From: Spirochaetales bacterium
Lineage (GTDB): Bacteria > Spirochaetota > Spirochaetia > UBA9216
DNA length: 64,000 bases
NCBI GenBank assembly: GCA_016839055.1
Contig: JAEKNX010000004.1
Coordinates: 62,001 to 126,000 of the forward strand
Reading direction: 5' to 3'
Shown here: positions 19,972 through 30,818 of the stretch, in pieces
Layout: each line of letters begins with the position of its first letter
How positions within the stretch are numbered: the stretch's first letter is position 1
Made by a program: the position numbers and the translations under genes
The notes under the pieces: generated by a model
The model's database searches: none
What the model was told of the DNA's origin: nothing
What the model saw: only the letters and a program-made list of their open reading frames with translations

Positions 19972-20643
19972 TTAGCCTGAAATGCCATGTCGTACAAAAT
20001 CCATGATTCCCGAAATTAGTTGATCTTCATTCTCGATGTCCGAACCGGTGTATATTTTCAGCCTCTCCATGTAGTAGTCACTTGCATAGGCGAACTGCAT
20101 CATCATTACAAGGTTATCAAGGCAGAACGAGATTATCCCCGGGTGAATGTCGGGTCTGAGAACTCCCTGTTCTTTCCCTTCGGTCAGGAGTTCGTGATAG
20201 ATCTTCGCGGTTATTCCTTCCATTTTGAGGGATATACGCTTCGAGAGAGAACTAAGCCCTTCGGTTGAAACATCGAGATAGATTTGGTTTATCTCCCTGT
20301 AGTTTCGCGCGTACTCCACGCTGATGTAAAGCATTGCCTCCATTCTGTCGAAGAGATCTCCGTTTCCACTGAGAACTTTTGACAGGGCCTCTTCCAGCAG
20401 GGTATATCCCCGGTCGAGTACCGACATGAATAGCGCTTCCTTTGACTTGAAGTAGCGGTACATGCCGCCGATGCTTATCCCCGAGTCTCGTGCTATCGTA
20501 TTGATGCTTGCCGCGTTATATCCCTTCGAGGAAAATTCATGTATGGCAATATTCAGGATTCGTTCCCGTTTTTCCTGCGTAATCTTGTCAAATGCTTTTT
20601 TATGATAGATTTCCGGTTGTTCATTCATTTTATTTTCAATCAT
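19972..20643 (-). CDS. TetR/AcrR-family transcriptional regulator (divergent operon repressor)
   Basis: This 224-aa regulator starts at ATG 20643, which has AGAGAGG about 5 nt upstream; a longer in-frame ORF reaches 20775 without start signals. The HTH is typical TetR: RILNIAIHEFSSKGYNAASINTIARDSGISIGGMYRYFKSKEALF. The helical ligand domain that follows is divergent. It is divergent from the seven-gene SCP2/transketolase operon, with a palindromic operator between them. It is therefore the likely repressor of that operon, probably released by a lipid-like or pathway metabolite (inference). TetR regulators placed this way normally control the neighbouring divergent genes. Confidence 0.88.
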   Translation of the reverse strand: MIENKMNEQPEIYHKKAFDKITQEKRERILNIAIHEFSSKGYNAASINTIARDSGISIGGMYRYFKSKEALFMSVLDRGYTLLEEALSKVLSGNGDLFDRMEAMLYISVEYARNYREINQIYLDVSTEGLSSLSKRISLKMEGITAKIYHELLTEGKEQGVLRPDIHPGIISFCLDNLVMMMQFAYASDYYMERLKIYTGSDIENEDQLISGIMDFVRHGISG

Positions 20644-20719
20644 CAGGACCTCTCTACTTCTAATTTTCTCAGATTCCGACTCAAATTTCCAGTGCCGGAG
20701 TGCACTAAATAAAATTTCC

Positions 20720-20748
20720 TTGCGCAGCGGAAAGATGGGGTGTACAAT
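20720..20748 (+). promoter_or_regulatory. Promoter of the SCP2/transketolase operon
   Basis: TTGCGC (20720-20725), a 17-bp spacer and TACAAT (20743-20748) predict transcription from about 20755. The TetR operator at 20758-20777 then covers the start of the transcript, a standard repressing position. Confidence 0.5.
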
Positions 20749-20757
20749 CATATCATA

Positions 20758-20777
20758 GAGAGCGAGCGCTCGCACTC
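20758..20777. promoter_or_regulatory. TetR-type palindromic operator
   Basis: GAGAGCGAGCGCTCGCACTC is palindromic except for one A/A pair. Its 12-bp core GCGAGCGCTCGC is perfect and is centred between 20767 and 20768. Size and symmetry match operators of TetR-family regulators. It stands between the divergent TetR gene and the operon, just downstream of the predicted operon start. Confidence 0.75.
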
Positions 20778-20819
20778 ATAAAGTTGATTAATTACATTTT
20801 TTTTCAAAGGGAGGTCTTG

Positions 20820-21575
20820 ATGCCTGATTCAAGTGTGAAGGCGAGGTGTAATCTTTTTGCGGTTCTGAGGGGGATTGAATATCTTCTTGATAATGACGCG
20901 GAGTGTAAAAAGCTGGTAGAGGGAACTGATCTGGCGATTCAGTTCAATATTAAGGACGGGCCGAAGGGGAATTTATCGATTCGGGACGGAAAGGCATTAA
21001 TGAAGAGCGGGAAGCATAAAAGCAGTATGATTCTGTATTTTACTTCTCCCGAACACTTCAACAAGATGATAGACGGAAATGCAAATCCCATACCGCTTAC
21101 GGGGTTTCATAAAATCGGATTCTTGACCGGTCCGTTCATGAAGCTTGCCGACAAGCTCAACTATTATCTCCGGCCTGAGGGCGACCTGCTCTCCGACCCT
21201 GATTACTTCAGGATGAATACCGAGATAACCGCCTATACGGCCTTCTTCGCGCTGGCGGAAATTGGAAATCATGACCGCATGGGACGGCTCAGCAGCGCCG
21301 CCATGCCGGACGGCATCCTGCAGGTTCAGATAGAAGACGGAATTGGTATTTTTATTAATGTAGAAAAGGGCAGGCTAACCTGCAATAAAGGTATCCATGA
21401 TAAGCCCCGGGCAATTCTGTCTTTCAGGAATCTCGACGCGGCACACCGGGTACTTAATGGAAAACTCGATACATATACCGGGCTCGGCAACGGCGAGATG
21501 AGTATGAGGGGTTTTATCCCGATGCTGGATAATATGAACCCGATACTGGACCTTGTGCCGGTCTATTTAAGTTAG
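20820..21575 (+). CDS. SCP2-like (sterol carrier domain) protein, operon gene 1
   Basis: This is a 251-aa soluble protein. Two successive segments look like SCP2 lipid-binding folds: residues ~45-125 (LSIRDGKALMKSGKHKSSMI ... EHFNKMIDGNANPIPL) and ~165-245 (LQVQIEDGIGIFINVEKGRL ... DAAHRVLNGKLDTYTGL). SCP2 domains carry sterols, fatty acyl chains or other hydrophobic molecules. ATG 20820 is chosen because AGGGAGG lies 5 nt upstream; an earlier in-frame ATG (20784) has no SD and overlaps the promoter region. It is paralogous to the fifth gene of the operon. A carrier or substrate-presenting role for the pathway is inference. The fold assignment rests on pattern, not a search. Confidence 0.65.
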   Translation: MPDSSVKARCNLFAVLRGIEYLLDNDAECKKLVEGTDLAIQFNIKDGPKGNLSIRDGKALMKSGKHKSSMILYFTSPEHFNKMIDGNANPIPLTGFHKIGFLTGPFMKLADKLNYYLRPEGDLLSDPDYFRMNTEITAYTAFFALAEIGNHDRMGRLSSAAMPDGILQVQIEDGIGIFINVEKGRLTCNKGIHDKPRAILSFRNLDAAHRVLNGKLDTYTGLGNGEMSMRGFIPMLDNMNPILDLVPVYLS

Positions 21576-21584
21576 GAGGAAGTT

Positions 21585-22853
21585 ATGATAGATACAGTCT
21601 ATACCCATACGAAATCAATGGAAGTTTTCGAAAGAGCCCTCAAGGTTCAGCCGGCAGGTATTCCGGGACATCTGGGCCCCGTGCAGTCCCAGTTCATCCC
21701 GACATCCGCCTATCCGCTCTATGCTGATCGGGCAAAGGATTCCTACTTCTGGGATCTCGACGGCAACCGTTATATCGATTACATGTGTGCATACGGTCCC
21801 AATGTGCTTGGCTACAATAATGAGCTTGTCGATAATGCCGCGAGAGCGCAGTACGAGAAGGGCAACTGTATGCCGCTGCCCGGCAGGGTACAGGTAGATC
21901 TTGCCGAACTTCTGTGCGACACAATTAAAATTGCTGACTGGGCGTTTTTTATGAAGAACGGCGGAGACGCAACCGGCTTTGCCAAAATGATCGCTCATAC
22001 GGCTACCGGACGTGATAAGGTTGTGATGGTTGAGGGCGGTTATCATGGTGTTGCACCCTGGACCCAGGCTGTTACTCACGCCGGAGTCACCGAAGATGAT
22101 GTTAAAAATAATCTGAAGGTAAAATGGAATGATGCGGAAGCCTTCGAGCGTCTTGTTAATGAGTACCCGGGCCAGATTGCCGCCTTCATCAGCACCCCCT
22201 ATGATCACAGGGTCTTTACCGACAATGTGCTTCCTGCAAAAGGATACTGGCAGAAAATACGCAGAATCTGTGATGCAAATGGAATTGTTCTGATAATCGA
22301 TGATGTTAGATGTGGATTCAGGCTCGACCTTGCAGGCTCAGCTGAATATTTCGGTTTTCAGCCTGACCTAGCCTGCTACTGCAAGGCTCTCGCAAATGGC
22401 TACAACATCTCCTCCGTAGTCGGTCGGGATTCGTTGAAGGATGCGGCGGCCAAGGTCTTCTACACCGGAAGTTATTGGTCAAGCGCGGCTCCCATGGCGG
22501 CAGCTGTTGCATGCATCAGTGAACTCCGCCGGATAGATGGAGCCAGGCTTATGATTGAAAAGGGAGAGACGCTCTCCGCCGGTCTTGTAACTGCTGCTGC
22601 CAATGAGGGCCTCGATCTTAAAATCAGCGGCGTTCCATCAATGTTCTACATGAGACTTACAAATGATGACTCGCTGATGATGCAGCAGGAGTTCTGTGCC
22701 GAATGCGCCAGGCGGGGAATTTTCTTTGTCAGCCATCATAATCACTTTATCAATTGTTCGCTGACTGATGATGACATCAGGCAGACCCTGGAAATTGCTT
22801 CTGAGGCATTCAGAATTACGGCCCGGAATAATCCGGATAAAGTTAATAATTAG
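21585..22853 (+). CDS. Class III PLP-dependent aminotransferase (GSAM-like), operon gene 2
   Basis: This 422-aa fold-type I enzyme resembles glutamate-1-semialdehyde aminomutase. It has FWDLDGNRYIDYMCAYGPNVLGY, an NGGDATGFAKMIA phosphate-binding segment, GYHGVAPW, LIIDDVRCGFR (pyridine-N Asp), and the PLP lysine in CYCKALANGYNISSVVGR. A true hemL is unlikely, because it usually shows DEVMTGFR at the Asp motif and would not sit in this context. It is probably a ketone or omega-aminotransferase. AGGAGG lies 5 nt before the start. The 9-bp gap to gene 1 and 17-bp gap to the transketolase subunit show one transcript. It should act on the carbonyl made by the neighbouring transketolase (inference). 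Confidence 0.85.
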   Translation: MIDTVYTHTKSMEVFERALKVQPAGIPGHLGPVQSQFIPTSAYPLYADRAKDSYFWDLDGNRYIDYMCAYGPNVLGYNNELVDNAARAQYEKGNCMPLPGRVQVDLAELLCDTIKIADWAFFMKNGGDATGFAKMIAHTATGRDKVVMVEGGYHGVAPWTQAVTHAGVTEDDVKNNLKVKWNDAEAFERLVNEYPGQIAAFISTPYDHRVFTDNVLPAKGYWQKIRRICDANGIVLIIDDVRCGFRLDLAGSAEYFGFQPDLACYCKALANGYNISSVVGRDSLKDAAAKVFYTGSYWSSAAPMAAAVACISELRRIDGARLMIEKGETLSAGLVTAAANEGLDLKISGVPSMFYMRLTNDDSLMMQQEFCAECARRGIFFVSHHNHFINCSLTDDDIRQTLEIASEAFRITARNNPDKVNN

Positions 22854-22870
22854 AAATAGGAGAATGGAAA

Positions 22871-23722
22871 ATGGGACTGGAAAGAGAAGAATATCTGAGG
22901 CTCGATAATAAGGCCCGGGAACTCAGAAAACTGATCATCGATACGGTTGTCTGGGCCGGCTCCGGCCATGTGGGCGGGGCTCTCAGCTCGATCGATATAT
23001 TGACCCTCCTTTATTATAAATACATGAATATCGACGTGGATAATCCAGGATGGGAGGACCGTGACCGGTTTATCCTGAGCAAGGGACACATAGGCGTAGG
23101 CCTTGCGCCGGTTCTCGCCGATAAGGGCTTTTTCTCGAAGGAGCTGCTCGAGACCTATAATCACACGGGATCCAGCCTCGGAATGCACCTCGATAAGAAC
23201 AAGGTAGTAGGCCTGGATGCATCGACAGGTTCACTCGGCCACGGCCTTCCCCTATCACTGGGCCTCGGACTGTCGGCAAGGCTGAAGGGGCAGAGTTTCA
23301 AGACATACTGCCTGATGGGTGACGGCGAATGTGATGAGGGCTCGGTATGGGAGGCCGCCATGGCTATCTCCCATTATAAACTGACCTCTGTTATTCCGAT
23401 TGTCGACCGCAACCGCTGTATGATAGACGGACGCACGTCCGATGTAATGACCCTCGAACCCTTTGCCGACAAATGGCGCAGTTTCGGCTTCGAGGTGCTT
23501 GAGGTGGACGGTCATGATCTTCACAGCCTCAGTGATGCAATAGAGACTGCCCGGATGGCAAGCGTTAAACCGGCTGTCATAATTGCAAACACCAAGAAGG
23601 GCTGTGGAGTCGAGTTTATGACCGATGACTACCGCTATCATTACGCAGGTTTTGATGTCGATAAGGCTGAAGAATGTCGTGTTGAGATTGACCGCTATCA
23701 TGAAATGCGGATAAACGGATAG
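22871..23722 (+). CDS. Transketolase, N-terminal (TPP-binding) subunit, operon gene 3
   Basis: This 283-aa protein equals the first third of a classical transketolase. It shows the SGHVGGALSSIDILTLLYY motif, a conserved GHIGVGLAPVL, and the TPP/Mg motif GDGECDEGSVWEAA followed ~25 residues later by VDRNRCMIDG. It must pair with the next gene product to form the active site. Split transketolases are common in bacteria and archaea. Here the setting (aminotransferase, lipid-binding proteins, flavoprotein) is not that of the pentose phosphate pathway, so a specialised acceptor aldehyde is possible. The SD region AGGAGAATGGAAA precedes the ATG. Confidence 0.88.
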   Translation: MGLEREEYLRLDNKARELRKLIIDTVVWAGSGHVGGALSSIDILTLLYYKYMNIDVDNPGWEDRDRFILSKGHIGVGLAPVLADKGFFSKELLETYNHTGSSLGMHLDKNKVVGLDASTGSLGHGLPLSLGLGLSARLKGQSFKTYCLMGDGECDEGSVWEAAMAISHYKLTSVIPIVDRNRCMIDGRTSDVMTLEPFADKWRSFGFEVLEVDGHDLHSLSDAIETARMASVKPAVIIANTKKGCGVEFMTDDYRYHYAGFDVDKAEECRVEIDRYHEMRING

Positions 23723-23732
23723 GAGGAAGAAA

Positions 23733-24740
23733 ATGGGCGGATTAAATTATACTATGCTTGATACGGCGAAATTATCTACGGCGGAGCTTTATGGGAAAAC
23801 CCTGACAGATCTGGCCGAAGATCATCCCGAAATAGTCGGCCTCACTGCCGATCTTGCAAAATCAACGAAGATTGGAGTTCTCGGAGAGAAATTTCCCGAG
23901 CGTCTCTTTAACCTGGGAATAGCCGAGCAGAATCTCTTCGGAACGGCTGCCGGAATGGCGCTTAACGGCCTCGTACCCTTTGTCTCGACCTTCGCAATTT
24001 TTACGACAATGAGGGCCCTCGATCAGGTTCACACCGATATCTGTTATCAGAATCTCAACGTCAAAATGATTGCCACCCACGCCGGGCTCTCCTTCGGGCA
24101 GGCAGGATCTACTCACCACTGCACCGAAGATCTCAGCATAATGCGGGCAATGGCAAACTGCAAGGTAATAGCGCCTGCCGACGGCATGGAGACTGCGCTT
24201 GCGGTCAGGGCCGCATACGAGACTCCGGGTCCGGTCTACATCAGGATCAACCGCGGCTTCGATCAGAAGGTCTATGACAATATGGACTATGGTTTTGAGA
24301 TAGGAAAGGCTGTTGAACTTCACGAAGGTACCGATCTGACGATTATCGCCTGTGGTTCGGCTGTCTGGAGTGCCCGTGAGGCTGCAAACGTTCTTGAACA
24401 GGTTGACGGCATAAGAGCCCGTGTTCTTGATATGCATACTATCAAGCCCCTTGACAAGGAAGCAGTTCTGTCAGCGGTTCATGACACGAGGAGAATTATC
24501 ACGGTCGAGGATCATAACATTGTCGGCGGACTCGGAAGCGCAGTAGCCGAGGTAATGGCCGAGAGCGGAAAGGCCTGTGCCTTCAAGCGGCTCGGAGTTC
24601 CCGATACCTTTTCAATCATCGGTCTGCACGAGGATCTGATGGCTCATTACGGCTATGACATAAACGGTATTCTGAAAACCGCGAGAGAACTGATGGGCGC
24701 AGATTTTGAAGAAGATAATGACTGGGATGATGAGATTTAA
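23733..24740 (+). CDS. Transketolase, C-terminal subunit, operon gene 4
   Basis: This 335-aa protein covers the pyrimidine-binding and C-terminal domains of transketolase. The TPP-activating Glu lies in NLGIAEQNLFGTAAGMA, and the acceptor-site region is VSTFAIFTTMRALDQVHTDICYQNLNVKMIATHAG. The motif SFGQAGSTHHCTEDL and the transketolase C-terminal domain (VRVLD-like RARVLDMHTIKPLD) follow. The start ATG has GGAGGAAG 4 nt upstream, and the gene lies 10 bp after the N-terminal subunit. It is the natural partner of gene 3. The two together should transfer a two-carbon ketol unit between a donor ketose and an acceptor aldehyde. Confidence 0.88.
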   Translation: MGGLNYTMLDTAKLSTAELYGKTLTDLAEDHPEIVGLTADLAKSTKIGVLGEKFPERLFNLGIAEQNLFGTAAGMALNGLVPFVSTFAIFTTMRALDQVHTDICYQNLNVKMIATHAGLSFGQAGSTHHCTEDLSIMRAMANCKVIAPADGMETALAVRAAYETPGPVYIRINRGFDQKVYDNMDYGFEIGKAVELHEGTDLTIIACGSAVWSAREAANVLEQVDGIRARVLDMHTIKPLDKEAVLSAVHDTRRIITVEDHNIVGGLGSAVAEVMAESGKACAFKRLGVPDTFSIIGLHEDLMAHYGYDINGILKTARELMGADFEEDNDWDDEI

Positions 24741-24743
24741 GCC

Positions 24744-25541
24744 ATGAGTGAAAGTTATGATGAAGTATATTATACGAACAGGATCTTCCTCGATTCGGTA
24801 CTGCCGGTCATAAAACCGGTTGTGGAAGGAAAGGCTTCCCTGCAAAAAGTATGGGAAGGAAGGACGGGCGTCTGTCAGATAAGCTGCCGGACCGAAGACG
24901 GAGCCGATGGAACTCATTTTCTGATAGAAGACGGCCTCTGGAGCGTTAAACGCGGCCTATATGACGGCAAGGTTGATGTGGAGCTGGTTTTTAAGTCCAG
25001 AGAGCATCTAAATAATTTCTTTAAGGGGAAACAGATCCCGCTTCCGGCCATGAAGGGGATAATAGGAGGCAGGGGAATGTTTCTGCCGTTTATGAAGTCT
25101 CTTCTTGCGATGGGCGGCCTGCTTGCCGCAAAAAAGCCGCCTGAGGCCGAAGAGGACAGCCGCCTTCTTGTAAAGTGCATGTTTTGTCTATTGTCTTCGG
25201 GAATAAGCACCCTCAATAAGTTGAAGCATCCGAAGATTTATCCCTGGACATTGTCGAGTCCGGACAGGGTCTATGCCTGGGCTGTAGGCGATGATGAGGA
25301 GCTTGCGGCCTACATTAGAATAAAGGCCGGAAAGAGCAAGGCGTCACGCGGTAAGTATGAGAGGAGCAAGCCGTTTTTTACTATGCGGTTTGACTCGGTG
25401 CCGAGTGCCCTGGGCATCCTCTTGAGTATTGATGACATGATTGAGTCTACTGTAAACGGTAAACTTACGATGGAAGGCGGACCGGAATACGGCGCACAGC
25501 TCGGTGATCACATGCTGCTTATCGGCAGTCTGATTCAGTAA
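24744..25541 (+). CDS. SCP2-like protein paralogue, operon gene 5
   Basis: This 265-aa protein is similar in layout to operon gene 1. Two SCP2-like halves surround a hydrophobic hinge: residues ~35-115 (THFLIEDGLWSVKRGLYDGKVDVELVFKSREHLNNFFKGK) and ~165-262 (ELAAYIRIKAGKSKASRGKY ... LLSIDDMIESTVNGKLTMEGG). The hinge contains FLPFMKSLLAMGGLLAAKK and SCMFCLLSSG-type Cys/hydrophobic stretches, so it may be membrane-associated. It starts three bases after the transketolase stop without a clear SD, which implies translational coupling. Two different lipid-binding-like proteins flanking the catalytic genes suggest hydrophobic intermediates (inference). Fold recognition is by eye and moderate. Confidence 0.6.
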   Translation: MSESYDEVYYTNRIFLDSVLPVIKPVVEGKASLQKVWEGRTGVCQISCRTEDGADGTHFLIEDGLWSVKRGLYDGKVDVELVFKSREHLNNFFKGKQIPLPAMKGIIGGRGMFLPFMKSLLAMGGLLAAKKPPEAEEDSRLLVKCMFCLLSSGISTLNKLKHPKIYPWTLSSPDRVYAWAVGDDEELAAYIRIKAGKSKASRGKYERSKPFFTMRFDSVPSALGILLSIDDMIESTVNGKLTMEGGPEYGAQLGDHMLLIGSLIQ

Positions 25542-25559
25542 GTGCTAAAAGGAGCAAAT

Positions 25560-26090
25560 ATGAAGGTTAGATCCCTCTGTCATGCGGGCGTCACCGTGCG
25601 AAATCTTGAGGAGGCGGCAAGATGGTATTGGGAGGTCTTTCGCCTCCCCCTTGTTGCCGCCGGAGAAATGAACCGCGGCGACCTTGAGCGAATGAAGGCC
25701 CTGTACCGCCTCGAGGACTGCTCGTTGAAATTTGGAATGCTGCTCTGCCCGAAAGGTGGGACTATTGAGATTTTCGAGTTCTCAAAGACCGAAGTGGCAG
25801 AGCATCGCTGGAACAGCCCGGGGGTTACCCATTTCACCTTCGATGTGAAGGGGATTTTTCGCTGGCATGAAAAACTGACTGCCCGCGGCGACGTGGAAGT
25901 GCTTACTCCGGTGCAGAATACCGACGGCAACCAGTGGTTCTTCTTCAGAGATCCTGATGGAAACCTCGTGGAGCTGATGGATTTGAAGTTTAACTACATT
26001 CTTCTGAGATATCTCAGCAGGATTGCCGGATTTTTTATGCGTAAATTTCAATTTAGTTCTATCTATAAGGTGCCGGTTGTGAATGACTGA
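25560..26090 (+). CDS. VOC (glyoxalase/dioxygenase superfamily) protein, operon gene 6
   Basis: This 176-aa protein has the two betaalphabetabetabeta modules of the vicinal oxygen chelate fold. Candidate metal ligands are His in LCHAGVTV, Glu in GGTIEIFEF, His in GVTHFTFD and Glu in DPDGNLVELMD, all present, so a metal-dependent lyase, isomerase or epimerase is possible. The C-terminus adds a basic amphipathic tail (ILLRYLSRIAGFFMRKF) unusual for the family, perhaps a membrane contact. ATG 25560 has AAAGGAG 6 nt upstream and is preferred over the in-frame ORF start at 25542. It overlaps the next gene by 8 bp. Confidence 0.78.
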   Translation: MKVRSLCHAGVTVRNLEEAARWYWEVFRLPLVAAGEMNRGDLERMKALYRLEDCSLKFGMLLCPKGGTIEIFEFSKTEVAEHRWNSPGVTHFTFDVKGIFRWHEKLTARGDVEVLTPVQNTDGNQWFFFRDPDGNLVELMDLKFNYILLRYLSRIAGFFMRKFQFSSIYKVPVVND

Positions 26091-28140
26091 TAATAATATT
26101 CTGTTCACTCCGTTTTCGATCGGCAGCATGGAAATTAAAAACCGCATTGTTCAGACTTCGGTTGAGGTCGGAATGGCGGGCTTTGACGGTTCTCCGACTG
26201 ACCTCCTGACTGATTATTACATCAAGAGGGTGCGCGGCGGGGTGGGGCTTATCTGTACCGGCATATGCAGGATTAACAGCATGCACGGGGTTACCTCCCC
26301 GCGGCAGCTGTCTCTTGCGACAAACCGGAATGTTCCGGCTTTTAAAAAGATGACCGATCACATTCATGAGGAGGGCGGCAAAATTGTTGTTCAGCTTCAT
26401 CACCCGGGCCGGCAGACGTACTCTGCTATGGTAGGAAACTGGCCGATGGTGGAAGCCTTCTCGAGGCTCATTCCGAATTTCGAGAAGTTTTTTCCGGCCC
26501 TTGTTAAGATGAGCAGCGGCATGCAGGAGAGGCTCTGGGCGCCGCCGGTTGTCTCGGCATCGGCCCTGCCCTGCGGTCATGTCAGGCAGAAGACGCGGGC
26601 GCTCAGGACTTCCGAGGTGAGAACTCTTGTGACGCAGTTTGTACAGGGGGCTGTGCGGGCGAAGACTGCTGGTTTCGACGGCGTCGAGCTTCATGCCGCC
26701 CACGGCTACCTTATTCAGCAGTTCCTGAGTCCTGCAACGAACCTGCGGACAGACTGTTACGGCGGGAGCTTTGAAAACCGGTTTCGCTTTATTTCCGAAA
26801 TTATCGAAGGAATAAGGGGCTCCTGTGGAGAGGAGTTTCCGCTTATAGTAAGGCTCACGGTTGATGAGTACAGGCCCGACGGCAGCGGAATCAAATTATC
26901 AGAAGGAGTTAAGATTGCCGAAGCCCTTGAAGCTTGCGGCGTTGATGCGCTGGATATATCATCGGGCTCCTATGAGCAGATGAATAAATGGCTTGAGACG
27001 GTCAACTACGCCCCCGGCTGGCGGAAGCATCTTGCCGCGGAGGTCCGCAAGGTTGTGAAGATACCTGTAATAGCTGCTAACCTTATTCGGAGCGCTCATC
27101 AGGCGGCTTCGCAGATTAGCGGAGGTGTTCAGGACTTCATCGGTCTCGGACGACCGCTTCTGGCCGACCCGGAGCTTCCTAACAAGATTAAGGAAGGCCG
27201 GGAGGATGAAATTCGCCGATGCATAGTCTGCTGCCAGTGTTTCGAGTCTCTGAATATTAATGCCTGGGACGGCCTGCCTCTCCGCTGTTCGGTTAATCCG
27301 GAGCTTGCCGAGGCTGCATGTGAACCGCTTCCGGCCAGAGGAAAGGCCGTCATCATAGGAGGAGGCCCCGCGGGGCTTCAGGCCGCGCTCAGCCTTGCCG
27401 GAAGGGGAGTTAAGGTTGTTCTCTTTGATGATAACAGTGAAACAGGCGGGCAGCTCAGGCTGGCCGAAAAACCTCCGGAAAAGGAAAAGACGGGCTGGTT
27501 CGCCGATGACCTGACTGCCGCCGCTCTGCGCCTCGGAGTTGAGATACGGTCCGGAAGAGCTGCCGATGCACAGACGATTATGGCTGAGAAGCCCGACGGA
27601 ATAATTCTGGCAACAGGAGCCCGCCCAAGTCTCCCCCCTGTCACAGGGGCGGAGTTGCCTCATGTCTATGATTATCAGCAGATCCTCTCAGGGGACTGCT
27701 TTCCGGACTCAGCAGATACGGTCGCGGTAATAGGCTCGGGGATGACAGGGCTTGAGACCGCCGAGTACCTGGCGGCAAGGGGGAAGAAGGTGGCTGTTAT
27801 CGAGATGGCGGATGTCATCGGCCCCGGAGCTTATTTTCAACATCTTGATGAGGCAACTCTCTTTCTTGAGAGCCGCGGCGCCCGGTTTATAGCCGGTCAT
27901 CGTCTGGTTGAGATCCTTGACGGGCTTGTAACTCTAGAAAGTACTTCCACTGCCGAACGCATGAACCATGCCGCCGATGCGGTAGTGCTCGCTGTGGGAA
28001 GCAGACCCTATGATCCGCTGTCAAAAATTATAGAGGCACAGCCCGTTCCATTCAGGATTATTGGGGATGCAGGCGGTATTGGAAAGATTGCCGATGCTGT
28101 CGGGCAGGCTCATGCTGCCGCTCAGCAATGGCCGTTTTAA
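26083..28140 (+). CDS. OYE-type NADH:flavin oxidoreductase / dienoyl-CoA reductase family, operon gene 7
   Basis: This 685-aa protein is a two-part enzyme. It has an N-terminal FMN TIM barrel (residues ~1-350; FDGVELHAAHGYLIQQFLSP and GLGRPLLADP), a [4Fe-4S] cysteine cluster (CIVCCQCF ... RCSVNP, residues ~383-410), and a C-terminal FAD/NADPH module (GGGPAGLQAALSLAGRG and IGSGMTGLETAEYLAARGKK). This is the layout of 2,4-dienoyl-CoA reductase (FadH) and related ene- or dehydrogenases. The YxxP/HxxH catalytic detail should be modelled. It overlaps the VOC gene by 8 bp and ends the operon at a hairpin. It would reduce a C=C conjugated to a carbonyl or CoA ester in the pathway (inference). Confidence 0.88.
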   Translation: MTDNNILFTPFSIGSMEIKNRIVQTSVEVGMAGFDGSPTDLLTDYYIKRVRGGVGLICTGICRINSMHGVTSPRQLSLATNRNVPAFKKMTDHIHEEGGKIVVQLHHPGRQTYSAMVGNWPMVEAFSRLIPNFEKFFPALVKMSSGMQERLWAPPVVSASALPCGHVRQKTRALRTSEVRTLVTQFVQGAVRAKTAGFDGVELHAAHGYLIQQFLSPATNLRTDCYGGSFENRFRFISEIIEGIRGSCGEEFPLIVRLTVDEYRPDGSGIKLSEGVKIAEALEACGVDALDISSGSYEQMNKWLETVNYAPGWRKHLAAEVRKVVKIPVIAANLIRSAHQAASQISGGVQDFIGLGRPLLADPELPNKIKEGREDEIRRCIVCCQCFESLNINAWDGLPLRCSVNPELAEAACEPLPARGKAVIIGGGPAGLQAALSLAGRGVKVVLFDDNSETGGQLRLAEKPPEKEKTGWFADDLTAAALRLGVEIRSGRAADAQTIMAEKPDGIILATGARPSLPPVTGAELPHVYDYQQILSGDCFPDSADTVAVIGSGMTGLETAEYLAARGKKVAVIEMADVIGPGAYFQHLDEATLFLESRGARFIAGHRLVEILDGLVTLESTSTAERMNHAADAVVLAVGSRPYDPLSKIIEAQPVPFRIIGDAGGIGKIADAVGQAHAAAQQWPF

Positions 28141-28154
28141 GATTGACAGAAGAA

Positions 28155-28182
28155 ATATTCCCCAGGCCGTCCTGGGGAATAT
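28155..28182 (+). terminator. Hairpin ending the SCP2/transketolase operon
   Basis: ATATTCCCCAGG (28155-28166) pairs perfectly with CCTGGGGAATAT (28171-28182) around CCGT, 15 nt after the last stop codon. The following bases (TGGGGGTACTTTCTATT) are only mildly T-rich, so it may act as a 3'-end stabiliser as well as a terminator. Confidence 0.65.
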
Positions 28183-28342
28183 TGGGGGTACTTTCTATTC
28201 GAAATAATCGGAGCAATCAGACTAACCTATAATTCTGCTGAAAAACCAGAGGGAATTAATCAAGGCTGAACTGTTGATGATTTTTTTCTGATGTAAGTAA
28301 TTATTAACTTGTATACACGACGAATATATTTTAAGGTTAATA

Positions 28343-29440
28343 ATGCAATGGGAAAAAATGATGAAGGATCCCCTGGTACTAAAAAATTACCAGTTATTGA
28401 AAGAAACAGGGATTCTCGATTATATGGATACGCTTAGAATAGATAATCTGGGTCTTGAAAATTTACTGACCGAGGCATATGAAATATTCAGGAAAGAATC
28501 GGTAGAAGAGCTGGTCGATTTTATTATAAGCTGCCTTTCGGATAAATTTGTCCCGTCAAATCTGATTTTTATTTTAAATCAGGGGATAATGGTCAACAAG
28601 ATAAAGACAGTTGTCTATAAAAATCTGAAGATCGTAGATTCTGATCTTAAGATTGAAACTCTGGAACCTTATGAGAAATTCTTTCGAAAGTACACTGGAA
28701 CTACCAGTTATCTGATTTTTGAAAGTGAGATTGATGATCCTCAGCTGCTTACTCTTTTTTCAAATTTCAGCCCGGAAATTATCGTGCCGGTAAATGGCCT
28801 TTCCGGACTTTACGGTATTATCCTGTTCGGCCCGAAGGTCCTGGGGCAGGATTATTATGCGAACGAGATTGCCTATATTGACCGGCTTACAAGATTCACA
28901 TCGATAGGGATTCAGAATAATATTCATTATGAACATTCTGTAAGAGAACCGAAGACCGGACTTTATAATCACAATTTCTTTGTTAGGCGTGTGGATGAGG
29001 AAATAGCCAGGGCAAGGAGAACAAAAAAACCGTTTTCCGTAATAATTCTTGATATCGACAAGTTTAAATTTTTCAATGATACCTACGGTCATCTTGCCGG
29101 AGATGAAATCATTATTAATCTTGCCGGGAAAATGAAGCAGGAAATGAGAGAGGAAGACATCCTCTCCCGCTTCGGAGGAGAGGAGTTCATGGTACTTCTT
29201 CCTGATGCCGACCGCAGTGCGGCATGGATTGCCGCCGAAAGAATCCGGAAGGCTGTGGAAGATATGACTACCCTCTACATGGAAGAGAGCCTGAAGATAA
29301 CAGTAAGCCTGGGCATTGCCACCTTTGATGAAGAATATAGTGATAATGAAAACCTCTTCAGGAGCGCCGATGCTGCCCTTTACCTCTCAAAGGAAGGCGG
29401 ACGAAACCGGACTTCCTTCTCAAAGCCCCGTGTCTCCTGA
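28343..29440 (+). CDS. GAF-like/GGDEF diguanylate cyclase
   Basis: This 365-aa cytoplasmic protein makes c-di-GMP. It has an N-terminal helical segment, a GAF-like sensor (~50-190), then a GGDEF domain with active-site GGEEF at 278-282 and substrate motif LDIDKFKFFNDTYGHLAGDE. The inhibitory I-site RxxD (REED, 269-272) stands exactly five residues before GG, so product feedback is expected. AAGG lies about 8 nt before the ATG. The last ~70 bases of its coding region overlap the predicted start of the radical SAM gene. No EAL or HD-GYP gene is in the window. Confidence 0.9.
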   Translation: MQWEKMMKDPLVLKNYQLLKETGILDYMDTLRIDNLGLENLLTEAYEIFRKESVEELVDFIISCLSDKFVPSNLIFILNQGIMVNKIKTVVYKNLKIVDSDLKIETLEPYEKFFRKYTGTTSYLIFESEIDDPQLLTLFSNFSPEIIVPVNGLSGLYGIILFGPKVLGQDYYANEIAYIDRLTRFTSIGIQNNIHYEHSVREPKTGLYNHNFFVRRVDEEIARARRTKKPFSVIILDIDKFKFFNDTYGHLAGDEIIINLAGKMKQEMREEDILSRFGGEEFMVLLPDADRSAAWIAAERIRKAVEDMTTLYMEESLKITVSLGIATFDEEYSDNENLFRSADAALYLSKEGGRNRTSFSKPRVS

Positions 29441-30818
29441 GGAACCTTCCGAGAAGCCCCGGGCCCTCTTAATTTACCCCCCCGTCTATGATTTTGCTCT
29501 CTATGACCTTTTTCTAAAACCTTACGGCCTGCTTCGGCTAGGTTCGATGCTCGAGGCTGCCGGATGGAGCACCAGACTTATTAACGCGCTTGACTACTCG
29601 GATCCTGAAACCATTGCCAAAATGGGAACGCTCAGGCGGAGACCGAACGGTACAGGGAAGATACACCGAAGCCTGGCCCCGCTTCCCGAGGCACTTAACG
29701 GAATACATCGCCGTTTTGCCCGTTATGGAATTCTTCCTGAAGTTTTCAGGTCCATGATAGGAGCCGAACATCCTGATGCCGTCTTCATCTCATCGGGAAT
29801 GACCTACTGGTATAAGGGCGTCGCCGAAACGGTGGCTGCTGTAAGGGAAATATGGCCGGGAGTTCCGGTAGCCGTCGGCGGAGTCTATGCCTCCCTGATG
29901 GGGGAACATTGCATGAAGGTCTGCACTCCCGACTATATTGTACAGGGTGACGCCGGTGAGGAGCTGGGCCGCTATCTGAGGAGCCGTGGTCTTCCCGGTC
30001 TGGAGCCTGGAGCCGGCTGCCAGCCGCTTGACAAGGGCTGCTGGAATGATGCGGCCGTCATAAGACTTAATGAGGGCTGTCCACTAAACTGTGATTACTG
30101 CGCGTCTAAAAAAATAAACAACCGTTTCACAGCCGGCCGGCCGGCAGATGTTTTCGAGTGGCTTGTGGCGGTTAACCAGGCCCGCGGTACCTCAAATTTT
30201 GCCTTCTATGATGATGCCCTTCTTTATAAATCCGGGGATGTTCTGAAACCCTTTCTCGAGTCGGTAATTGATTATCAGAAGACAACCGGCAGAATCCTCA
30301 ACTTTTATACTCCCAACGCGATGCATATCCGCTACCTCGACCAGGAGTGTGCCTTTCTCATGAAGAAGGCCGGTTTTCGTGAAGTCCGACTAGGTTTCGA
30401 GAGTGAATCGGAGGATTTTCATTTGGAACATGATAATAAATACAGTAAAAGCGGATTTCATGAATCAATCAGACTGCTTACCGCCGCGGGCTTCAACCGG
30501 GAGGAGATAATCGTCTATATCCTCGCGGGACTGCCGGGGCAGAGGGCCTCGGAGGTTGAAGATACGATTAGATATGCCGCCGATCGCGGACTGACTCTGT
30601 CTGTTTCGGAATTTTCCACAGTCCCCGGCTCAGGACTGTGGAATAAATGTGTAGCGAGCTGCCGTTTTCCTATAGCCGAGGAGCCGCTGTACCACAATAA
30701 CAGCTTTTTCCCGATGGAATGGGAACATTTTACCCGGGAAGACATGCAGCGTCTGAAAAAACTGTCAAAGGAGTCTTTTTCTATTTCTTCGAAGAAGACT
30801 GCATGTTCAGATTCTTGA
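29370..30818 (+). CDS. B12-binding-domain radical SAM protein
   Basis: This ~482-aa protein has an N-terminal cobalamin-binding-like Rossmann domain (PDAVFISSGMTYWYKGVAETV ... VAVGGVYASL) followed by a radical SAM core with CPLNCDYC (CxxxCxxC, residues ~237-244). The family carries out C-methylation, C-C bond rearrangement or methylthiolation; the target here is unknown. The start is uncertain. ATG 29370 has AGGAG 6 nt upstream but overlaps the GGDEF gene by 71 bp, and GTG 29430 overlaps by 11 bp without an SD. Co-transcription with the diguanylate cyclase is likely. It ends inside the convergent gpsA gene, with a 38-bp overlap. Confidence 0.82.
   Translation: MLPFTSQRKADETGLPSQSPVSPEEPSEKPRALLIYPPVYDFALYDLFLKPYGLLRLGSMLEAAGWSTRLINALDYSDPETIAKMGTLRRRPNGTGKIHRSLAPLPEALNGIHRRFARYGILPEVFRSMIGAEHPDAVFISSGMTYWYKGVAETVAAVREIWPGVPVAVGGVYASLMGEHCMKVCTPDYIVQGDAGEELGRYLRSRGLPGLEPGAGCQPLDKGCWNDAAVIRLNEGCPLNCDYCASKKINNRFTAGRPADVFEWLVAVNQARGTSNFAFYDDALLYKSGDVLKPFLESVIDYQKTTGRILNFYTPNAMHIRYLDQECAFLMKKAGFREVRLGFESESEDFHLEHDNKYSKSGFHESIRLLTAAGFNREEIIVYILAGLPGQRASEVEDTIRYAADRGLTLSVSEFSTVPGSGLWNKCVASCRFPIAEEPLYHNNSFFPMEWEHFTREDMQRLKKLSKESFSISSKKTACSDS

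Follow-up and report, generated by a model that had tools for sequence, protein, structure and literature searches.

A cassette of five genes, scpA-amt-tkN-tkC-scpB, lies in the window analysed here, a stretch of 64,000 nucleotides from a Spirochaetales bacterium (contig JAEKNX010000004.1). It probably encodes an undescribed anaerobic pathway which interconverts sphingoid bases on one side and a fatty aldehyde together with a two-carbon unit of sugar on the other, using a FumI-type aminotransferase and a transketolase acting on fatty aldehydes, each with a tandem SCP2 carrier of its own. Our leading proposal, to which we give slightly less than an even chance, is that the five proteins break down sphingoid-type long-chain bases without a kinase or a lyase. 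The parts belong to known families; the cassette as a whole appears to fit no known pathway. The initial annotation of this DNA had reached the same view of novelty, and no matching pathway was found in the literature searched. Nor was any paper found that links transketolase with a sphingoid base, SCP2 or spirochaetes, in a search that left most subscription papers outside. Because no known pathway accommodates it, and because it belongs neither with the sugar-phosphate transketolases nor with the serine palmitoyltransferase (SPT) route, the cassette is considered new as a system. The core genes are as follows.

20820..21575, forward strand: scpA, tandem SCP2 protein of 251 residues, starting at ATG 20820 (PF02036, 22.4 bits)
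21585..22853, forward strand: amt, FumI-type class III aminotransferase (PF00202, E 4e-37)
22871..23722, forward strand: tkN, N-terminal subunit of a split transketolase, with Asn in place of Arg91 (E. coli numbering)
23733..24740, forward strand: tkC, C-terminal subunit of the split transketolase, with D469A and R358A (E. coli numbering)
24744..25541, forward strand: scpB, tandem SCP2 protein of 265 residues (predicted fold; homologous to scpA)

To define the core, scpA and scpB were searched for in 296 Spirochaetota genomes, and an scpB profile was run on a collection of one genome per species (294 loci, 80 kept). The order and strand of the core are identical in 71 of 71 loci in which each of the five genes was called once, and pairwise distances among the five core proteins correlate (r 0.87–0.94), so that the five genes are inherited together as a single block. 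Among the 296 Spirochaetota genomes, scpA and scpB occur together in 24, each being present in 26 (Fisher p 8e-31, relatedness ignored). Carriers of the core comprise Spirochaetota, Vallitalea metagenome-assembled genomes, two isolates of Oceanirhabdus (O. seepicola and O. sp. W0125-5) and a large number of Clostridia from gut and rumen; many come from herbivore guts, and sediment and seep organisms are also represented. VOC and TetR genes are added in the Spirochaetota/Vallitalea/Oceanirhabdus branch, where TetR orthologues (42–53% identity) adjoin the core in other families. OYE-like genes stand by the core in L066, L067, L073, L074 and L100. OYE was rejected as a core gene, being found beside voc in few loci. 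The conserved system therefore consists of five genes, to which VOC, TetR and OYE have been added in particular lineages; the conserved gene order expected by the initial annotation holds for these five, and its seven-gene pathway does not stand.

In the gut Clostridia the core mostly stands alone between variable flanks, without VOC, and its distribution is patchy (21 of the 80 genomes in one family and 3 of 197 in its order). One Clostridia subgroup, exemplified by L110 (2902-5676), has, divergent from scpA, a class II aldolase gene and the gene of a second aminotransferase, which is GSAM-like, with an M24 peptidase and an FGGY kinase downstream of the core; similar loci are L082, L089, L094, L106, L117, L118, L120, L122, L127 and L130. 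These four genes were not accepted as parts of the system, being confined to this single subgroup.

In two Spirochaetota families the core is divided. In family f42, scpA-amt and tkN-tkC-scpB lie at separate places, with both present in six of eight genomes, and in family f8, scpA-amt and scpB are on different contigs. Each SCP2 protein thus goes with one enzyme, ScpA with Amt and ScpB with TkN-TkC. Two f42 genomes (G071 and G162; loci L058, L055 and L056) have tkN-tkC-scpB without scpA-amt, suggesting that the transketolase module may act by itself or together with a different aminotransferase. In G178 and G219 the contig stops inside or directly after the first half of the core. Taken by themselves, the separate loci would also suit genes that are merely co-located and share no pathway. 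This explanation is contradicted by the identical order in 71 of 71 loci, by the co-varying sequences and by co-occurrence even where the core is split, and we regard it as barely credible.

The nearest solved relative of Amt is FumI (6hbs, E 4e-88), the best GSAM match being 2e-50. Its catalytic Lys, in the motif CKALANGY, aligns with the Lys of both FumI and GSAM. Of 109 Amt columns conserved across the core, 82 are common to FumI and 43 to both GSAM references. A GSAM or haem-type role was ruled out, since the FumI lineage fits far better by E-values and conserved columns. Hydrolysed fumonisin B1 is an analogue of sphingoid bases. FumI transfers its 2-amino group to pyruvate (PMC2933618). 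By analogy, the substrates of Amt may be pyruvate and a long-chain 2-amino-3-hydroxy compound. In L069 an alanine dehydrogenase gene lies 33 base pairs (bp) upstream of scpA, which fits an alanine/pyruvate couple.

ScpA and ScpB are confirmed, by structure prediction and homology, as paralogous tandem SCP2 folds. Pfam SCP2 (PF02036) matches only the C-terminal half of the window's ScpA, at 22.4 bits against a cut-off of 21.3, and does not match the window's ScpB; at E 0.01 it finds 23 of 34 ScpA and 2 of 33 ScpB proteins. A sequence-profile search of solved structures with ScpA gave nothing meaningful, the SCP2 relationship being seen by fold comparison only. AlphaFold (AF2) models built from the cassette alignments have a predicted local distance difference test (pLDDT) score of 92.6 for ScpA and 91.0 for ScpB. 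Foldseek and VIA group both with SCP2 folds, including fatty-acid-bound 1pz4 and UbiJ, with Z up to 12.4 for ScpA and 11.3 for ScpB; the N-terminal half of ScpB also matches 2cx7 (Z 9.1). Homology links the two halves of ScpA to each other (hhalign probability 95.9) and ScpA to ScpB along 221 columns (97.8), and these relationships together with the fold matches identify both as tandem SCP2 proteins. The initial annotation's two SCP2-like paralogues are thus upheld, and the hydrophobic intermediate that it drew from them is consistent with two predicted SCP2 folds beside the enzymes. Lipid binding by ScpA and ScpB is likewise suggested by the models.

TkN and TkC match the two-subunit transketolase of Carboxydothermus hydrogenoformans (6yaj/6yak). 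The residues tested for catalysis and thiamine diphosphate binding are kept: the equivalents of H26, H66, H100, D155, N185 and H261 are invariant in 90 TkN sequences, and those of E411, S385, H461, H473 and R520 in 89 TkC sequences. The acceptor site is different: the D469 position is Ala in 89 of 89 TkC, the R358 position is Ala in 87 and Ser in 2 of these, and the R91 position is Asn in 90 of 90 TkN. The D469-R91 pair and R358, by which a sugar-phosphate transketolase acceptor site is recognised, are thus missing throughout; these are three linked changes across two genes, in every copy seen. In E. coli transketolase a salt bridge joins D469 to R91, and variants at D469 marked one stage in leading this enzyme from phosphorylated aldehydes towards non-polar ones (PMC5073344). 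Changes at R358, S385, D469 and R520 of the same enzyme raise its activity on bulky aromatic aldehydes (PMC7661550). A housekeeping transketolase was ruled out by the acceptor-site changes, and the same genomes have other transketolase-family genes. The window genome itself has a second split-transketolase C subunit (L154, G000:C10:268856-269791; 46% identical), which keeps R358 and has Gly at D469; judged by these residues, it is possibly another specialised transketolase.

The FumI-type aminotransferase and the altered transketolase acceptor site together lead to a specific chemical hypothesis. The initial annotation had recognised the split transketolase, to which the two-subunit 6yaj/6yak type can now be added, and had proposed no chemistry. 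What is observed is which genes occur together and are co-inherited, their folds, the families to which the proteins belong and the altered active sites; from these we infer the following substrate, order and direction. ScpA would carry a free long-chain base, as a 2-amino-1,3-diol or in the 1-deoxy form, to Amt, which would transaminate it with pyruvate as acceptor to yield alanine and a 3-hydroxy-2-ketone. This ketol would be handed to ScpB for presentation to TkN-TkC, which would cleave the C2–C3 bond, transferring the two-carbon unit (C1–C2) to an aldose phosphate and releasing a fatty aldehyde. The aldehyde might then be oxidised; in f42, an aldehyde:ferredoxin oxidoreductase-type gene adjoins tkN-tkC-scpB (L059, L060, L061, L062 and L064). 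In the window's branch, 4-unsaturated bases would yield a 2-enal, which OYE may reduce, and VOC may epimerise C3. The latter role is suggested because transketolases handle 3S centres while the common sphingoid bases are 3R.

The genomic context of the cassette was counted in the same 296 Spirochaetota genomes, 28 with the cassette and 268 without, with p-values that ignore relatedness. Neutral ceramidase (PF04734) is present in 11 of the 28 genomes with the cassette and in 29 of the 268 without it (p 3e-4). SPT-like genes, taken as those scoring about 440 bits or more on NF047600 and lying below its cut-off of 640, are present in 13 of 28 against 32 of 268 (p 3e-5), and one or the other in 19 of 28 against 59 of 268 (p 1e-6). 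The ceramidase signal comes from five of nine cassette families, and the SPT signal from two, f23 and f42, the only cassette-bearing Spirochaetota with SPT-like genes. The best solved match of the f42 enzyme is SPT 3a2b (2e-125). Family f10, which is without a clear SPT, has two ceramidases, and a Vallitalea genome has a ceramidase (564 bits). Neither a kinase nor a sphingosine-1-phosphate (S1P) lyase is encoded in the cassette, whole genomes not having been searched for either. Across the Spirochaetota, SPT-like alpha-oxoamine synthases (about 440–608 bits on the SPT model) are found in about 45 of 296 genomes, which suggests that many members of the phylum may synthesise sphingolipids.

The same enzymes run in reverse would give SPT-free synthesis, with the transketolase adding a two-carbon ketol, or acetyl from pyruvate, to a fatty aldehyde, and Amt aminating the resulting 3-hydroxy-2-ketone with alanine. 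The chemical evidence is neutral as to direction, SPT was found neither in the window genome nor in the gut Clostridia tested, and a transketolase that has lost R358, which binds phosphate, would be suited to a donor such as hydroxypyruvate or pyruvate. In addition, Flavonifractor plautii, a relative in the Oscillospiraceae, is reported to make phytosphingosine, with no gene named (PMC11914097). However, the core contains no dedicated aldehyde-forming reductase or N-acyltransferase. Furthermore, f23 and f42 have SPT-like genes alongside the cassette, which weakens the idea of the cassette as a simple replacement for SPT. Breakdown is favoured over synthesis because of this coexistence, the inducible TetR layout, the ceramidase association and the patchy spread; synthesis is rated an unlikely alternative, though one to be taken seriously.

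Somewhat less probable again is that the substrate is some other hydrophobic aldehyde, ketol or amine, such as a polyketide-like, isoprenoid or ether-lipid intermediate, and that the cassette makes or remodels an unknown aminolipid. An SCP2 fold indicates only that some lipid is likely bound, UbiJ shows such a fold in an isoprenoid pathway, and the natural substrate of FumI is a polyketide-derived amino-polyol. The co-occurrence with ceramidase and SPT argues against this, as does the finding that, across the 71 loci, genes of no other lipid class accompany the core consistently. Detoxification, in which the cassette would inactivate antibacterial sphingoid bases or fumonisin-type mycotoxins of guts and feed, would differ from our proposal in purpose and not in chemistry. 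FumI itself detoxifies fumonisin (PMC2933618), and sphingoid bases are antibacterial, the sphBC genes of P. aeruginosa turning sphingosine into a non-toxic product (PMC11893366). The many carriers in herbivore guts and the TetR layout would also suit such an inducible system. A transketolase step would, however, be superfluous after deamination, and sediment and seep organisms are carriers too, so that detoxification is considered very improbable.

Several observations weigh against the proposed breakdown of sphingoid bases. Amt and FumI are only 37% identical, and the FumI substrate is a 1-deoxy analogue. Some other paralogous transketolases in the cassette genomes vary at single positions, and some also lack D469. 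The window genome has no PF04734-family ceramidase and no SPT, its one strong match being a glycine C-acetyltransferase (633 bits over a cut-off of 460), and the ceramidase and SPT associations carry p-values uncorrected for relatedness. Transketolases ordinarily give 3S and the common sphingoid bases are 3R, and the gut Clostridia have no VOC. Finally, the core contains neither an uptake gene nor an acyl-CoA gene.

In the window the core forms part of a seven-gene unit (20820-28140) divergent from a TetR gene, and all eight genes were found where the initial annotation had placed them. The remaining features of the locus are listed below.

19972..20643, reverse strand: TetR-family repressor gene (PF00440, E 4e-13), divergent from the seven-gene unit
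20720..20748, forward strand: promoter-like TTGCGC-17-TACAAT 5' of scpA, sigma-70-like, read by eye
20760..20775, no strand: probable TetR operator, palindrome GAGCGAGCGCTCGCAC, between TetR and scpA, recurring in related loci
25560..26090, forward strand: voc, accessory VOC protein, a putative metalloenzyme (PF00903, E 1e-14)
26083..28140, forward strand: oye, accessory FadH-type ene-reductase with flavin mononucleotide, flavin adenine dinucleotide and Cys-cluster regions (PF00724, E 9e-76)
28154..28183, no strand: 13-bp perfect hairpin just 3' of oye, without a T-run on the forward strand

The intergenic gaps are 9, 17, 10, 3, 18 and -8 bp, the 18-bp gap counting voc from ATG 25560 and becoming 0 bp if voc starts at GTG 25542. 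This layout, with the gaps of -8 to 18 bp reported earlier, supports the single transcription unit of the initial annotation, and the hairpin is possibly its end. The putative promoter (TTGCGC 20720-20725, a 17-bp spacer, TACAAT 20743-20748) scored too weak for detection in an automatic promoter scan; the same layout is present in L067. TetR most likely starts at ATG 20643, which is preceded by an AGAGAGG ribosome site, rather than at GTG 20775, where the start would overlap the operator. Equivalents of the palindrome lie 5' of scpA in L066, L067 and L069, and TGAGTGA-type inverted repeats occupy the corresponding place in L037, L009, L042 and L040, a recurrence that is as expected for a TetR operator. 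Presumably the palindrome resembles the operator of B. subtilis FadR; no paper containing the motif was found. The window's TetR lies below the NCBIfam equivalog cut-off for Bacillus FadR (46.7 against 200 bits) and is assigned to the TetR superfamily only.

The VOC protein has residues H14, H97, E76/E79 and E144 (counted from GTG 25542) invariant in 17 loci, and these His and Glu residues appear suited to metal binding. The nearest solved relative of OYE is 2,4-dienoyl-CoA reductase (1ps9); the scores of OYE fall below the NCBIfam equivalog cut-offs for BaiCD (406.7 against 825 bits) and mycofactocin OYE (407.6 against 793 bits), placing it in the FadH/OYE superfamily only. Beyond the unit, at 28343-30818, lie a GGDEF diguanylate cyclase gene, identified by Pfam, and an open reading frame in which a CxxxCxxC radical-SAM-like motif was noticed by eye.

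If the proposal is true, the cassette would represent a third chemistry of the sphingoid backbone beside SPT and S1P lyase, present in gut Clostridia which meet host and dietary sphingolipids. It would mean kinase- and lyase-free use, or making, of sphingolipid backbones by gut and sediment anaerobes, and microbial control of gut sphingolipids would become directly testable. Its transketolase would naturally accept long-chain aldehydes, which would be useful for chiral amino-diols, and SCP2 proteins would act as paired, enzyme-specific presenters of substrate to soluble enzymes. Even with another substrate, a five-gene cassette conserved from Spirochaetota to Clostridia and without an assigned function deserves assay.

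Each component has a counterpart in a known system. Amt shares the common class III fold and FumI-lineage residues with FumI (PDB 6hbs/6hbv), and likely also the pyruvate/alanine couple and a long-chain 2-amino/2-keto substrate. FumI, which comes from a fumonisin-degrading Sphingopyxis, acts without SCP2 partners or a transketolase, whereas Amt has both. The split transketolase of C. hydrogenoformans likewise has two subunits, thiamine diphosphate (ThDP) and the same catalytic residues; it keeps D469, R358 and R91, in contrast to D469A, R358A/S and R91N in the cassette enzyme. The SCP2 fold is common to the cassette proteins and the SCP2 family. One family member, UbiJ in the Ubi metabolon, is an earlier case of an SCP2 protein for which a role in serving soluble enzymes that handle a lipid intermediate has been proposed. 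The cassette differs in having tandem domains and two paralogues, each paired with one enzyme. The PigD-PigE pair of the prodigiosin MAP (2-methyl-3-n-amylpyrrole) module also has a class III aminotransferase acting after a ThDP carboligase, on an alkyl aldehyde. The match to PigE is weak, and that module uses another ThDP family, forms another bond, yields a pyrrole and has no SCP2 protein. Finally, the proposed pathway would act in the same region of the backbone as SPT and the kinase and S1P lyase routes, and would release a fatty aldehyde as the lyase does, but the cassette has no alpha-oxoamine synthase, kinase or lyase and would use transamination and ketol transfer instead.

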